Assembly: GCA_018669795.1 (NCBI GenBank)
Contig: JABHSQ010000005.1
Location: forward strand, 186,001-250,000
Origin: Flavobacteriaceae bacterium
Lineage (GTDB): Bacteria > Bacteroidota > Bacteroidia > Flavobacteriales > Flavobacteriaceae
Reading direction: 5' to 3'
Length of the DNA: 64,000 bases
Part shown: positions 57,076-64,000 of the stretch, piece by piece
Layout of the letters: each line of letters opens with the position of its first letter
How positions within the stretch are numbered: position 1 is the first letter of the stretch
Notes under the pieces: generated by a model
The model's input: the letters and a program-made list of their open reading frames with translations, nothing else
What the model was told of the DNA's origin: nothing
Database searches by the model: none
Position numbers and translations under genes: made by a program

Positions 57076-57870
57076 TTAATCTTTCAATATAAAACGTTTC
57101 AAATCCTTATTAAACTCTATAGTTTCTGATGGGAATAAAGTATTAAAACAGCCTAATTCAATAAGCTTATTTGGTTGATCGAAATGGACTTTATCTTTTG
57201 TCATTACTATCATTTTATTGGAAACCTGTATCGCTAAATCTATTTCTTGAGTTGAAAATAAGATAGTTTTTTGTTTTTCAACTGCTAATTTCTTCAATAA
57301 CTTTAATAAATATGCTCGATGGTAAATATCCAAATGAGTAGTTGGCTCGTCCAATAGAATTAATGGTGTGTCTTGGGCAAGTGCCCTTGCGATCATTACT
57401 CGTTGTAATTGACCATCACTAAGTTCCATACATTTATAATTTACTAGATCTTCAATTTCAGTAATATCAATAGCATTTTGAATTATTTTTTTATCATTTT
57501 CAGAAAGTGTTCCTATCCAATTGGTATAAGGATGTCTCCCTAGTGTAATCAATTCTAATACACTTAAGTTTTTTGATGAAGGAGCTTCTGTTAATACTAT
57601 ACTTATTGTATTTGCTAATTGTAATGAACTATAATCTGAAACATTTTTATTATTTAAATAAACAATTCCATTTAAAGCAGGTTGCATATTAGCTAATGTC
57701 CTTAATAATGTAGATTTCCCAATTCCGTTGATGCCAACAATACTCACTAATTCACCCTTTGGTATAGAGAAATTAATTTCTTTTGAAATGAGTATTTGTT
57801 CCTTTTTTAAAAAATACCCAATAGATAAATCTTTAACTTCTAAAACAGAATGTGATTTTTTTAAAGACAC
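57076..57870 (-). CDS. ABC transporter ATP-binding protein, FecE/BtuD type
   Basis: GINGIGKSTLLRTLANMQP, LSDGQLQRVMIARALAQDTPLILLDEPTTHLD. Confidence 0.92.
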   Translation of the reverse strand: MSLKKSHSVLEVKDLSIGYFLKKEQILISKEINFSIPKGELVSIVGINGIGKSTLLRTLANMQPALNGIVYLNNKNVSDYSSLQLANTISIVLTEAPSSKNLSVLELITLGRHPYTNWIGTLSENDKKIIQNAIDITEIEDLVNYKCMELSDGQLQRVMIARALAQDTPLILLDEPTTHLDIYHRAYLLKLLKKLAVEKQKTILFSTQEIDLAIQVSNKMIVMTKDKVHFDQPNKLIELGCFNTLFPSETIEFNKDLKRFILKD

Positions 57871-57882
57871 TTTTTTAATGTT

Positions 57883-58914
57883 TTAAAATAATAATTTTCT
57901 TTTTCTAACCAATAACCAAATTACAACTGGCGCTCCAAATAACGAAGTTATAGCATTAATTGGTAAGGTGAAATTACTAAATGGTAATTGAGCAACGGTA
58001 TCACAAAAGAGCATTAATATGGCACCACTTAGAAATACAGCCGGTAATAAAATAAAATGATTCGATGTAGTGAAATATTGCCTTGTTAAATGAGGTACTG
58101 CTAGACCTACAAATGCTATTGGTCCTGCAAAAGCAGTAATTCCTCCAGCCAATAAACTCGTTGCAACGATGATTAAAAGAGTTACTTTTTTTAAGTTTAC
58201 ACCCATACTTTTAGCATAGTTTTCACCTAGTAATAATGCATTCAATGATTTAATAGAAGATAGACAAATTAATAAACCAATTAAAACACAAATAAATAAA
58301 ATGAGTATTCCATTCCAAGATACATTTCCTAATGTTCCAAAACTCCAAAAAACAAACTGTTGTAACTGTTCCGCATTGCTAAAATAGGACAAAACAGAAA
58401 CTACCGCTGATGTAACACTTCCAAACATTAAGCCAATTATTAAAATAGTCATGGTATCTTTAACTTTAAAGCTTACTGCTAATACTGCTAGTAACACCAA
58501 AAAACTACCTAAAGCAGAAGCGATTACTAAACTCCAAGGACCCAGTAATAAACCTCCTAAAGTTCCACCAAAAACTCCAGCACCTAATATTAATAAGGCG
58601 ACTCCCAAACTAGCGCCACTACTTAATCCTAAGACAAAGGGTCCTGCTAAAGGATTTCTAAATAATGTTTGCATTATCAATCCAGAAACAGCTAAACCTC
58701 CACCCACTAAAACTGCTGTTATTGCTTTTGGTAACCGATATTCTAAAATAATAAACTGCCATGAAGATTTTATAGCCTCTCCACCAAATAAACTTGAAAA
58801 AACTTCTTTAAGAGGAATTGAGACGGTACCTAAACTTATATTAATGAAAAAAAACAGCACCATTAATAAAATTAGGATTATAAAATGTGATCGATATGTA
58901 TGTTGAGTTTTCAA
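57883..58914 (-). CDS. ABC transporter permease, FecCD/BtuC type
   Basis: LEYRLPKAITAVLVGGGLAVSGLIMQTLFRNPLAGPFVLGLSSGASLGVALLIL; AFAGPIAFVGLAVPHLTR. Confidence 0.95.
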   Translation of the reverse strand: MKTQHTYRSHFIILILLMVLFFFINISLGTVSIPLKEVFSSLFGGEAIKSSWQFIILEYRLPKAITAVLVGGGLAVSGLIMQTLFRNPLAGPFVLGLSSGASLGVALLILGAGVFGGTLGGLLLGPWSLVIASALGSFLVLLAVLAVSFKVKDTMTILIIGLMFGSVTSAVVSVLSYFSNAEQLQQFVFWSFGTLGNVSWNGILILFICVLIGLLICLSSIKSLNALLLGENYAKSMGVNLKKVTLLIIVATSLLAGGITAFAGPIAFVGLAVPHLTRQYFTTSNHFILLPAVFLSGAILMLFCDTVAQLPFSNFTLPINAITSLFGAPVVIWLLVRKRKLLF

Positions 58915-60051
58915 TTATTTAAGTTGATCAAAAAAGTATAAATTATGATTTGGCAATAATTCTGGATGCAATATTTTAATAATATCCTTTAATATAATAT
59001 CTGGTCTATTTGGGGCTAACTCAAAATATAATAAGCCACCAGTATCTCCAACTTTATGGGTAAAACTATATACTTGATCATTTTTAAAGGCATCAAATTG
59101 TTTATAAATAGCGTGGGCTTCTTTTAATTGTTTCATCGTGGTATAATAACTTGGCCCAATCCAAAATTGTGCATGTTCCCCTTTTTCTAAAACCGATTCT
59201 AAATTTAACGAATGACTTCCGGTACCTTTAGAATCACTCCATAAATATTTTCCATTTGCATCAGCTATAAATTGTGCGGCCCAACTTTTTCCTTGAGGTA
59301 AATACCAAATATCTTTATACATGGCTCCACTTAAAACGGTAGGTTTGTTTTTGGCTTTTAATGCAAGTTTTTTTGCATTTAGATATGCAGTTTTAATTTC
59401 TGAAAACAATTTATTAGCTAGCGCTTCCTTGTTGTAAAAAGCTGCAAAAAATTTAATCCATTCTGCTTTTCCCAATGGAGAAGTTTCTGTCCAATCTCCA
59501 TTATATAGAACGGGTATTCCGGTTTTTTTTAGCGTATTAAAAGTTTTATTGTTCCCATCTACAGCAAAACCGATGACTACATCTGGACTTAATTCGATAA
59601 GAGATTCCGTATTAATATCTTCATTTTTGCCTAACTCTTTTATCAATCCTTTGTTTATTCTTTCTCTTGTTTTTTTGGAAGAGATATAATCTAAATTTGG
59701 AAACCCAATTAATGTTTGATCAACTGCTAACATTTCTAGAGAAGGTATATGAGTGGTAGAGGTAACTACAATATTTTTTATTGGAATAGTTACAATAGCA
59801 TCATATTGTTCTGGAAAGTCAAGTATGGTAGCTTCCTCAATCAATGCATATTTAAAAACTTTTTCTGTTCCAGGCCAAGCGTTTTTTAAGGTGATTACTT
59901 TATACCCTTCTTGGTAGCTAATGTCAAATCCTTTTGCATATTCAATTTTTGAATTCTTATTAGTATTTATTTCTTCATTATTAGTTTCCTGTTGTTTTTT
60001 ACAAGAAATAAAAAGCAGTAAAGAAAACAAGATGTAAATCGATTTATTCAT
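58915..60051 (-). CDS. ABC transporter substrate-binding lipoprotein, BtuF/FhuD type
   Basis: LFISCKKQQ lipobox; VVTSTTHIPSLEMLAVDQTLIGFPN; LIELSPDVVIGFAVDG; next to the BtuCD pair and riboswitch-linked receptor. Confidence 0.9.
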   Translation of the reverse strand: MNKSIYILFSLLLFISCKKQQETNNEEINTNKNSKIEYAKGFDISYQEGYKVITLKNAWPGTEKVFKYALIEEATILDFPEQYDAIVTIPIKNIVVTSTTHIPSLEMLAVDQTLIGFPNLDYISSKKTRERINKGLIKELGKNEDINTESLIELSPDVVIGFAVDGNNKTFNTLKKTGIPVLYNGDWTETSPLGKAEWIKFFAAFYNKEALANKLFSEIKTAYLNAKKLALKAKNKPTVLSGAMYKDIWYLPQGKSWAAQFIADANGKYLWSDSKGTGSHSLNLESVLEKGEHAQFWIGPSYYTTMKQLKEAHAIYKQFDAFKNDQVYSFTHKVGDTGGLLYFELAPNRPDIILKDIIKILHPELLPNHNLYFFDQLK

Positions 60052-60111
60052 TCTTCAAAATTAATAGTATTAATTTTATTTTACCATTAAATAAAATCTT
60101 ATTTTTGTTTC

Positions 60112-60302
60112 GAATTTGGTGAGGATGTTTTTTATTATTAAAAATCATCTTCTTAAAAGGGAATTCGGTTTAATTCCGAAGCTGTTCCCGCAACTGTAAG
60201 TCATTTCAAATATAACATTTGAAATTGTAACTCTTTATAACCACTGCTCACGCGGGAAGGTTGTACAAATGACAAGCCAGGAGACCTGCCTATTCACTAA
60301 TT
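60112..60302 (+). promoter_or_regulatory. Cobalamin riboswitch
   Basis: AAAAGGGAATTCGGTTTAATTCCGAAGCTGTTCCCGCAACTGTAAG...CCACTG...GCGGGAAGG...GACAAGCCAGGAGACCTGCC (B12 box); flanks AATTTGGTGA/TCACTAATT can form P1. Confidence 0.95.
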
Positions 60303-60337
60303 AAACGATCGAGCTTTCGGGATAAAAGCAAGTGGAT

Positions 60338-62164
60338 ATGAAGAAATTATACCTTCTTATATTATTTATTAATGCTACGGCATCCATGTATGCTCAGCTA
60401 GATTCTATTCAACACTTAACTGAAGTGATGTTAATAGATGCAAAGTTGGAGGATTATTCTGAGGGCTTTGAACTCATTCAATTATCAGATACCTTAATAG
60501 CACGAAATTCGGTATCCTTAACGGAAGTATTAAACTTTAATACGACCATTTATTTTAAAGAAAATGGTTACGGAATGGTATCTTCACCCTCTTTTAGAGG
60601 AACAAATGCATCACAAACAGCTGTTATTTGGAACGGAATTTCGATCAACTCAAATCTTAATGGTCAAACCGATTTTAACACCATCGCTCCAAGTTCTTTT
60701 AATACTATAATTATAAGAAGTGGAGGAGGTAGTACTCAATACGGGAGCGGAGCAGTTGGAGGTAGTATTCATTTAAATAATACAATCGATTTTCAAAAAA
60801 AACAATCATCAGACTTAAGGCTATCCTACGGTAGTTTTTCAACAATTAATGGTGTATTTAAAAGTAGATTTTCATCTGATAAAAAGTACATTGATTTGGG
60901 AATTGACTTTATTAGTTCAGAAAATGATTATGAGTATATCGATTTAAATCAAAAAAATGAAAATGGAAATTTTGATAAACTAAATGTAGCTGCAAATGCA
61001 GGATTAAAATTTAGGAAAAGTACACTTTCTTGGAATTCAAATTACTTTTCAGGAACACGAAAATTTTCAGGAACCATTACATCACCTTCAAAAGACAGTT
61101 ATAAAGACATAACAACACGAAATTTAGTAACTTGGAACAAGACCTTTAATAAATGGAAAAATACGATAAAAGGAGCTCATACTTTTGAAAGATATCGATA
61201 CTATCCTCAGCCTGAAAATCAGTTATATTTTGAAGGGCAATCAACTACTTATTTAGGAGATTATCAATTGGAATATGAAATAAATAAGGATCTAAAAATA
61301 AGTTCCATCATTAGCTATACCTATATAAAATCTAAAGGGACTAATATTGGAACTAACGATCGTAATACCCTAGCTGCGATTTTTTTATGGAAGCATCACT
61401 TAAATGAAAAATTGAGTTATGGTATCAATTTACGACAAGAGTTTTTAACTGATTTTGAGAATCCTTTTTTTGCTTCTTTTGATGTTAATTATACGATCAA
61501 TAAGTACTATTCTTTAAAAGCAAATGGATCTAAAAATTATCGCACACCTACTTTTAACGATTTATATTGGAATAGTGGAGGAAATGAAAATTTAAACCCA
61601 GAAACTTCTTATCAAGTTGAAATCTCTAACCAATTTGTATGGAATCAATTTCAGTTGAATATAACCGGTTTTTATATATCTTCTGAAGACCTAATAAAAT
61701 GGCAACCAGGGGTAGATGGTTTATTTACACCAGTGAATATTTCAAAAACTGAAAATAATGGTATTGAAATAAATGGAAACTTTTCAAAATCATTTAATAA
61801 ACATGAATTAAATCTAGTTTTTAATTATTCATACACCGCTGCTAAAGATTTAGAAAAAAACAAACAGTTAATCTACGTTCCTTATCATAAGGTAACTGGA
61901 GTTTTTAATTATTATTATAAAAAATTTAGCGCTTATTATCAATTACTATTTAACGGTGAGGTATTTACAACCACCGATAATTATGGAATTTTAGATAGGT
62001 ATTCCGTTTCCAACCTAGGATTTGAATACCTAATACAAGAAAAGTTATTTCCAATAAAAATTGGAATTAAATTTAACAATATTTTCAATACGTATTATGA
62101 GAATGTTGCTTACCGGCCTATGCCAAATAGAAATATACAAACCTTTATAAACTTAAAATTTTAA
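60338..62164 (+). CDS. TonB-dependent receptor, BtuB-like cobalamin receptor
   Basis: Signal peptide; plug SFRGTNASQTAVIWNGISINSNLNGQTDFNTI, IIRSGGGSTQYGSGAVGGSIHLNN; ends FINLKF; riboswitch upstream; ATG 60338 preferred over GTG 60332. Confidence 0.92.
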   Translation: MKKLYLLILFINATASMYAQLDSIQHLTEVMLIDAKLEDYSEGFELIQLSDTLIARNSVSLTEVLNFNTTIYFKENGYGMVSSPSFRGTNASQTAVIWNGISINSNLNGQTDFNTIAPSSFNTIIIRSGGGSTQYGSGAVGGSIHLNNTIDFQKKQSSDLRLSYGSFSTINGVFKSRFSSDKKYIDLGIDFISSENDYEYIDLNQKNENGNFDKLNVAANAGLKFRKSTLSWNSNYFSGTRKFSGTITSPSKDSYKDITTRNLVTWNKTFNKWKNTIKGAHTFERYRYYPQPENQLYFEGQSTTYLGDYQLEYEINKDLKISSIISYTYIKSKGTNIGTNDRNTLAAIFLWKHHLNEKLSYGINLRQEFLTDFENPFFASFDVNYTINKYYSLKANGSKNYRTPTFNDLYWNSGGNENLNPETSYQVEISNQFVWNQFQLNITGFYISSEDLIKWQPGVDGLFTPVNISKTENNGIEINGNFSKSFNKHELNLVFNYSYTAAKDLEKNKQLIYVPYHKVTGVFNYYYKKFSAYYQLLFNGEVFTTTDNYGILDRYSVSNLGFEYLIQEKLFPIKIGIKFNNIFNTYYENVAYRPMPNRNIQTFINLKF

Positions 62165-62168
62165 AAAA

Positions 62169-63224
62169 ATGAACTTATTAAAAAAAATCGCTTATTTAGT
62201 TACTTTTACTTTCTTAGTTGCTTCTTGTTCTCAAGATGATGAAGGTGTACCATTGCCATTAGGAGCTTATGAAAACGGATTCTTAATCACCAACGAGGGA
62301 CCGTTTCAAAATGGATCAGGTACGGTATCATTTGTTTCAGATGATTATTTATTTGTGGAAAATGAAATCTTCAACCAAGTTAACTCCTCTGATTTGGGAA
62401 ATATAGTACAGTCTATGGGTTTTAATGATGATCAAGCTTTTATAGTAGTAAACAATTCCAATAAAATTGAAGTTGTAAATAGGTATACTTTTGAATCTAT
62501 TGCTTCCATAACAGAAGGTTTAAATAATCCACGGTACTTTGTGTCTTCAGGTAGCAATGGGTATGTTACTAATTGGGGAGATCCTTTTGATGATACCGAT
62601 GATTTTGTTGCCGTAATTGATCTCTCTACACATACGGTAACCTCTATTATACCTGTTGCTTTTGGTCCAGAGAAATTAATAATGGCAAACAATGATTTGT
62701 ATGTTGCTCATCAAGGTGCCTATGGTCAAAATAATATTTTATCTGTGATAGATGTTTCAGCTAATATTTTAGAATCCACCATTGAAGTAGGAGATGTTCC
62801 CAATTCGATGGTAGTTTCAAATAATGATATTTGGGTACTTTGTGGCGGTAATCCTGAATTTACCGGTAATGAAACGAATGGAAAATTAGTAAAAGTTGCA
62901 ACAAGGGAAAATGCGGTTGTACAAGTTTTTGATTTTTTACCGACCAACCATCCTAAAAGTTTATCGATTGATGGTGTCAGTTTAATTTATAATTTAAATG
63001 GAGAGGTTTTTAGTAAGGAAGTAACTAGTAGTTCTTTGCCAACAAGCAGTATTATTGCTGGATCCTTTTATGCCATGACTATTAATGATGGAAAACTTTA
63101 TGCTACTGACGCTGGTGATTTTGCAAGTAACGGAACATTAAAAATATTTGATTTATCTACCAATTCAGAAATCATAACAATCGCTACAGGAATTATTCCT
63201 GGAGGAGTTTACTTTAATAATTAA
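62169..63224 (+). CDS. DUF5074/YncE-like beta-propeller lipoprotein (BtuG-like candidate)
   Basis: LVASCSQDDEG lipobox plus acidic export-like signal; repeated propeller strands; 4-bp gap after the receptor. Confidence 0.85.
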   Translation: MNLLKKIAYLVTFTFLVASCSQDDEGVPLPLGAYENGFLITNEGPFQNGSGTVSFVSDDYLFVENEIFNQVNSSDLGNIVQSMGFNDDQAFIVVNNSNKIEVVNRYTFESIASITEGLNNPRYFVSSGSNGYVTNWGDPFDDTDDFVAVIDLSTHTVTSIIPVAFGPEKLIMANNDLYVAHQGAYGQNNILSVIDVSANILESTIEVGDVPNSMVVSNNDIWVLCGGNPEFTGNETNGKLVKVATRENAVVQVFDFLPTNHPKSLSIDGVSLIYNLNGEVFSKEVTSSSLPTSSIIAGSFYAMTINDGKLYATDAGDFASNGTLKIFDLSTNSEIITIATGIIPGGVYFNN

Positions 63225-63246
63225 TTAGAAAAATTCTTGATTTATG

Positions 63247-63277
63247 AGCACCTCAGGCATTGGGGTGCTTTTTTTAT
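63247..63277 (+). terminator. Rho-independent terminator after the B12 uptake transcript
   Basis: AGCACCTCA-GGCAT-TGGGGTGCT-TTTTTT. Confidence 0.9.
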
Positions 63278-64000
63278 TTAATCTCCAGTAATATAAACTG
63301 ATTGAGCTGTTTGCCAAAAACTTGAAAATTATCATCAGCGACAAAGATTAATGATTTATTCCCATTATTAAGAATAGGACCAAAAGTAATGCCTTCAATA
63401 TTATCTATAATACCCTCGGTAAGCTCACTTTTAATAGCGTCAAACTCGAAGAGTAATTTTTTATTCAAAGGTATGTAATCTGTGCTTTTTAAAGAATCGA
63501 TAGCTAATGAATTTGTAGTAGAACTATCTGCATAGGCATAATAAATATTAACCGTGTTGCCATACCCAAAATAATCACTTTGATAGGTTCTTTCGATAAC
63601 AAAAAAATGATTGGCTTTAAACTCTAAAATATCGGTAACTCCATTGATATTGAATCCTCCTTTATTAGTCTTTGTAATAGCAGATAACTGATATACAAAC
63701 TCTTTTGATGGCTTTCCAGTTTCTTTATCAAAATAAGTAAATCTAACCGGTGAATTTGCTTTCTGGTATTTAGGTTCCTCTCCATCTATAGGAAGGGGCA
63801 GTTCAAAAGCAGTCCAATAGCCTTTATCATCAATACTATGGCTTAGTCCTTCCAATGTTGCGTTATGAATGGGCTTGGAATTTGCACTTGCTAAGAATTT
63901 AGTTGGTAATTGGAAGTCTTTTATAAATTCACCATTTTCTTTAGCTGAAAATAAAAGAGGATCTTTACCATTATTAATAGCCCCTTCACTTACCATAATT
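63274..64000 (-). CDS. Esterase-like activity of phytase-family protein, 5' truncated by window edge
   Basis: LEGLSHSIDDKGYWTAFELPLP...NIEGITFGPILNNGNKSLIFVADDNF; the frame stays open to the window end. Confidence 0.75.
   Translation of the reverse strand, partial: IMVSEGAINNGKDPLLFSAKENGEFIKDFQLPTKFLASANSKPIHNATLEGLSHSIDDKGYWTAFELPLPIDGEEPKYQKANSPVRFTYFDKETGKPSKEFVYQLSAITKTNKGGFNINGVTDILEFKANHFFVIERTYQSDYFGYGNTVNIYYAYADSSTTNSLAIDSLKSTDYIPLNKKLLFEFDAIKSELTEGIIDNIEGITFGPILNNGNKSLIFVADDNFQVFGKQLNQFILLEIK

Follow-up and report, generated by a model that had tools for sequence, protein, structure and literature searches.

Organization of the locus and its riboswitch

Within the window (the whole stretch of DNA analysed, 64 kb in length), a cobalamin riboswitch aptamer of family RF00174 lies on the plus strand at 60100..60307. 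The aptamer is complete: cmscan aligns it to model positions 1-189 and scores it at 93 bits (E 8.1e-22), where the gathering score is 31.5. It is the sole Rfam family found in the entire window, and the 2.25 Mb genome contains no second copy. An earlier note on this DNA had recognized a clear cobalamin riboswitch starting at 60112, a position just inside the aptamer determined here.

Two open reading frames follow the aptamer on the same strand. The first encodes a btuB-like TonB-dependent receptor of 608 aa (60338..62164; ATG at 60338, alternative start GTG at 60332, stop at 62164) with Plug and TonB_dep_Rec domains; the earlier note, too, had described a TonB-dependent receptor behind the riboswitch. 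Exactly 4 nt separate its stop codon from the next ATG (62165-62168). The second frame (62169..63224, +) encodes a btuG-like propeller lipoprotein of 351 aa, predicted to lie at the cell surface. The same note had described this gene as a propeller lipoprotein 4 bp past the receptor, with SQDDE after its cysteine, and we indeed find VASC20-SQDDE at the N-terminus and a match to DUF5074. A terminator-like hairpin, an 11-pair stem and then a T run, is located after btuG at 63246..63270 (+).

On the minus strand, a divergent gene set starts 49 bp from the riboswitch. It consists of a btuF-like substrate-binding lipoprotein (58915..60051, Peripla_BP_2), a btuC-like permease (57883..58914, FecCD 271 bits; best NCBIfam match BtuC at 212 bits, cut-off 334) and a btuD-like ABC ATPase (57076..57870, ABC_tran; best NCBIfam matches iron/corrinoid-type ATPases, below cut-off). 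These genes are likely btuFCD, though they fall under the NCBIfam model cut-offs. A btuF-like gene was found at 59 relative loci and is divergent in 58 of them. On the other side of the operon, we notice a convergent lipoprotein-like ORF of 363 aa, which occupies 63274-64000 (-) and runs on to 64365 (L002:9274-10365). It matches PF13449 (esterase-like activity of phytase) and is likely itself a propeller.

Corrinoid riboswitches use a kissing loop between L5 and L13, and the L5 consensus is UCCCG (PMC10653944). The L5 loop element of our aptamer (60186..60190, +) reads UCCCG and matches this consensus. Between the aptamer and the receptor gene, a hairpin at 60313..60329 (+), whose 3' end is 8 nt ahead of the receptor ATG, carries the loop CGGGA (60318-60322). 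We propose this hairpin as P13 of the expression platform. The two loops are complementary and could form the L5-L13 kissing loop. Of the 96 riboswitches parsed, 92 have CGGG 3' of the aptamer; among random pieces the share is 14%. Covariation cannot test the L5-L13 pairing, because its CCCG/CGGG core is invariant; the flanking positions pair in only 34/92 and 69/92, which gives no covariation support. An alternative pairing seen by eye, between UCAC of the aptamer and GUGG before the start codon, was dropped, as it is not kept in relatives.

We looked for a plus-strand terminator at the riboswitch/receptor junction and found none, which makes translational repression the likely mode of regulation. 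The receptor and lipoprotein would be made while the cell is short of cobalamin. At high cobalamin, L5 of the aptamer would pair with the CGGGA hairpin loop before the start codon, and translation would be blocked. This direction and mode are modeled on the riboswitch literature. At a related locus in Algibacter miyuki (L146), two tandem cobalamin riboswitches (1135-1353, 1898-2124) are located upstream of the receptor.

The propeller lipoprotein and its receptor

The lipoprotein matches the Pfam family DUF5074 with 49.3 bits (cut-off 27.2). Because the sequence of BtuG2 itself matches the same model (1.5e-20), DUF5074 is, judged by sequence, the BtuG family. In a phmmer search against PDB sequences, the top matches are 8p97_B (BtuG3, 9e-27) and 8bmx_D (BtuG2, 6.7e-26). 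A profile built from 38 relatives aligns end to end with BtuG3 (2.3e-95, residues 1-352 on 1-355) and BtuG2 (6.5e-93), and matches BtuG1 with 4.3e-47. The identity to BtuG2 is approximately 27%. The earlier note had expected a sequence so diverged that it would be annotated only as a DUF. This holds for Pfam, and no NCBIfam BtuG-like equivalog scores over its cut-off; the divergence does not hide the homology, which a single-sequence search already detects.

The AlphaFold2 model of the lipoprotein, based on 56 aligned relatives, has a pLDDT of 94.2 and a pTM of 0.88. Comparing this model with the PDB by Foldseek, a check that had been named beforehand, we found BtuG ahead of all else. Ranks 1-16 are occupied by BtuG chains only, the majority of them with a corrinoid bound, and the TM-scores for BtuG2 and BtuG3 are 0.80-0.88 with an rmsd of 2.1-2.3 Å. 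BtuK1 follows at ranks 17-19, XusB at 33 and YncE at 39. The fold thus bears out the idea of a flavobacterial BtuG equivalent.

Among known systems, BtuG2 and BtuG3 of B. theta (PDB 8bmx, 8bmy, 8bmz, 8okv, 8p97; PMC6143338, PMC10404256) are the closest. They share with the present protein the DUF5074 seven-bladed propeller, the lipoprotein anchor, an acidic run after the cysteine, an adjoining BtuB, a cobalamin riboswitch, and the NEG loop and Tyr316 of the pocket. Apart from the low identity and the pocket changes given below, the differences are that btuB precedes btuG here, that the genome holds a single copy, and that a marine flavobacterium takes the place of a gut Bacteroides as host. 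BtuG1/BtuGH of B. theta (PDB 8blw) likewise has a BtuG propeller paired with BtuB1 (profile 4e-47), but it has an additional BtuH domain at its C-terminus, which our lipoprotein lacks. BtuK1 (PDB 9s6c; PMC12751083) is also a B12-binding propeller and comes next after BtuG in Foldseek, yet its sequence match (profile 7e-18) and fold match are far weaker.

The receptor gives a similar picture. Its only PDB sequence matches below 1e-3 are BtuB3, BtuB2 and BtuB1 of B. theta, from the three solved BtuBG complexes. The best NCBIfam match is the equivalog TIGR01779 (TonB-dependent B12 receptor) with 85.4 bits, below its cut-off of 599.7, which places the receptor by sequence in the same superfamily and outside that equivalog. 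In the receptor model (pLDDT 89.2), we counted 22 barrel strands from the secondary structure. The first 17 Foldseek matches are BtuBs, with B. theta BtuB3 and BtuB2 before E. coli BtuB. BtuB2 and BtuB3 (PDB 8bmx, 8p97, 8p98) share the 22-strand plugged barrel and the aromatic tip of loop EL8 described below; the present receptor, with 608 aa, is shorter and is 23-24% identical to them over the structural alignment.

In BtuBG, B12 is pushed off the lid by the aromatic tip of receptor loop EL8; this tip is Tyr538 in BtuB3, Phe in BtuB2 and Trp in BtuB1 (PMC10404256). Phe463 of our receptor aligns with BtuB3 Tyr538 and belongs to the loop that joins strands 15 and 16 of the model. By the usual strand count this loop is EL8; the aromatic tip is kept, and its function is predicted. 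Of 120 relatives, 115 have an aromatic residue here, mostly Trp. Taken by sequence and model, the lipoprotein and the receptor are homologues of BtuG and BtuB.

Gene order and distribution in the class

Across the class, 269 of 396 genomes, representing 140 of 199 genera, contain matches to the lipoprotein; the weakest of these matches could be other propellers. For 59 of the 60 stronger matches (58 genomes), a cobalamin riboswitch is present on the same strand at most 5.2 kb upstream; the sixtieth is at a contig end. A receptor like that of the window is directly upstream of the propeller gene in 48/60 of this class-wide sample. Seen from the other side, 59 of the 82 riboswitches in the 58 sampled genomes adjoin a BtuG.

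A second sample of 48 named loci, mostly from Flavobacteriia, was built from a narrower alignment of relatives than the class-wide one. All 48 have the riboswitch in the same upstream position on the same strand. The receptor is directly upstream of the propeller gene in 72 of 80 loci. The 60- and 48-locus samples share a few genomes, and their members have a common ancestry, which means that the counts are not independent events. Of 18 genomes tested in which no BtuG was detected, 16 also have a riboswitch; because riboswitch presence per genome does not discriminate, only adjacency at the level of the locus is informative. At that level, the order of riboswitch, receptor and propeller, which the earlier note had proposed to check, is conserved, and the gene pair occurs with riboswitches.

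The nearest relatives of the lipoprotein (83-72% identity) belong to uncultured, partly marine Flavobacteriaceae and Flavobacteriales. BtuG has been described from human-gut genomes, and dense competition in the gut was offered as a possible evolutionary reason (PMC6143338). That the riboswitch-BtuB-BtuG unit is shared by a marine-type flavobacterium with a small genome and by free-living relatives suggests that it is no gut speciality. With the unit spread through the class, capture of B12 under a lid seems to be an old and general trait of this group. Meanwhile, DUF5074, matched by BtuG2 and by riboswitch-linked relatives, can be given a functional name. In the literature searched, with subscription journals mostly outside its scope, BtuG in Flavobacteriia received a passing mention at most. 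What is new here is the host range and some pocket residues, in particular a lineage-conserved His in place of Trp272; the system is otherwise ordinary in kind.

We notice several variations among the relatives. In Maribacter, Kriegella, Aurantibacter and similar genera, a Calx-beta domain separates the BtuG propeller from the lipid-anchor region (L129:3590-4987, L142:3605-4987, L128:3653-4978, L132:3647-4984). This form looks like a stalked BtuG, and in the loci checked (L129, L130, L142) it stands behind the same riboswitch type. No publication joining BtuG and Calx-beta was found in the literature searched. At L037 (G132:C13), a BtuG relative follows a riboswitch directly, and the 10 kb stretch yielded no BtuB-like ORF. 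At L041 (G054:C1:3695158-3696168), stop codons or frame breaks disrupt the BtuG relative as well as the receptor, owing to decay or sequencing errors.

Ligand pocket, alternative readings and use of B12

We compared the pocket of the lipoprotein with the named BtuG2 residues rather than with the 13 hydrogen-bonding ones. In the alignment, the ligand-gripping loop N54-E55-G56 of BtuG2 corresponds to N42-E43-G44, and Tyr316 corresponds to Tyr301, which is near-invariant (93 of 94 aligned sequences). Trp194 and Tyr335 are replaced by the other aromatics Tyr185 and Phe318, and the position of Tyr244 stays aromatic as Phe231. The stretch around Tyr239 is shorter, and Trp272 becomes His261; this His is found in 44/53 of the mainly flavobacterial set and in 12/38 class-wide. 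In BtuG2, Trp272 and Tyr239 are near the upper-ligand cavity, and the capture face is acidic (PMC10404256). The mature lipoprotein contains 40 acidic and 11 basic residues, a composition in keeping with such a face.

The changed residues at the cavity raise the idea of a BtuG relative that no longer takes cobalamin and instead binds cobinamide, pseudocobalamin or some other corrinoid or precursor. The prevalence of the His in the mainly flavobacterial set and the shortened Tyr239 stretch fit this idea. Yet the contacts of BtuG2 are with the corrin ring while the lower ligand stays exposed, and BtuG2 accepts several corrinoids (PMC10404256); excluding cobalamin would therefore be unusual. The gripping loop and the Tyr316 equivalent are also kept. 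We regard this loss of cobalamin as improbable.

A lid for another metal chelate, placed behind a cobalamin riboswitch by chance, would be somewhat less probable still. Such a lid would carry a xenosiderophore in the manner of XusB, or haem. XusB, too, is a seven-bladed surface lipoprotein and forms the lid of a TonB receptor (PMC13142918), and the generic folds are common to both. It differs in Pfam family (DUF4374), ligand and binding site. Our lipoprotein has no DUF4374 match in the Pfam search, XusB ranks 33 in Foldseek against ranks 1-16 for BtuG, and the receptor matches BtuBs alone. Cobalamin riboswitches also precede the gene in 59/60 and 48/48 relatives. On family, fold rank and this linkage, we reject an XusB-like siderophore lid. 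The chance presence in the operon of an unrelated, general-function propeller of the YVTN/YncE type has a negligible likelihood: generic propeller-repeat models do match the lipoprotein, but the profile scores (BtuG 2e-95 vs YncE 3e-12), the Foldseek rank of YncE (39) and a linkage conserved across scores of loci contradict it.

We therefore consider, with high confidence, that the locus is a BtuBG-type operon for cobalamin uptake. The two genes after the riboswitch almost certainly build a lidded B12 importer as in gut Bacteroides, with BtuB as the channel and BtuG as the lid. Cobalamin binding, lid movement and surface location are here carried over from the B. theta system. Lipobox Cys20 is followed by SQDDE, and aspartate is found at +4 in 75 and at +5 in 65 of 94 aligned sequences. 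Surface-export signals of Bacteroidota include C-X-K-(D/E)2-X in Capnocytophaga, SDDFE in F. johnsoniae and SDDDD in B. fragilis (PMC5080379). The earlier proposal that the acidic run acts as such a signal fits these motifs and the retention of the run in most relatives; Cys-SQDDE is a predicted signal, with localisation read from the motif.

In the proposed mechanism, this signal would carry the lipoprotein to the cell surface, where it would serve as a lid on the receptor and capture corrinoid in its propeller face. As the lid closes, the aromatic tip of EL8 would push the ligand from the lid into the receptor. TonB would then drive the ligand inward, and the divergently encoded BtuFCD-like transporter would move it to the cytoplasm.

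The points against the BtuBG reading are the low identity to BtuG2, the changed pocket residues, the BtuF, BtuC and BtuD scores below cut-offs, and the absence of MetH and MetE. Neither MetH (PF02965) nor MetE (PF08267, PF01717) was detected in the 99% complete genome, and thus the best-known use of B12 is missing. On the side of the BtuBG reading, CobS was not detected, and the genome encodes methylmalonyl-CoA mutase, a fused IcmF-like ORF of 1157 aa and a cobalamin adenosyltransferase. B12-binding domains score over cut-off only in the mutase and the fused ORF, and a radical-SAM-like ORF falls below it. Since no methionine synthase was detected, the cell probably imports corrinoid for adenosylcobalamin-dependent mutases, and the organism may depend on outside methionine.

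On the basis of the conserved His, we also speculate, as a long shot, that flavobacterial BtuGs form a chemically distinct branch. His261 could contact or ligate the cobalt or the upper ligand, altering the corrinoid preference or the trigger of release. Such a branch would belong to organisms using B12 for mutases and not for methionine synthase. The flavobacterial BtuGs provide diverged natural variants for dissecting the pocket.
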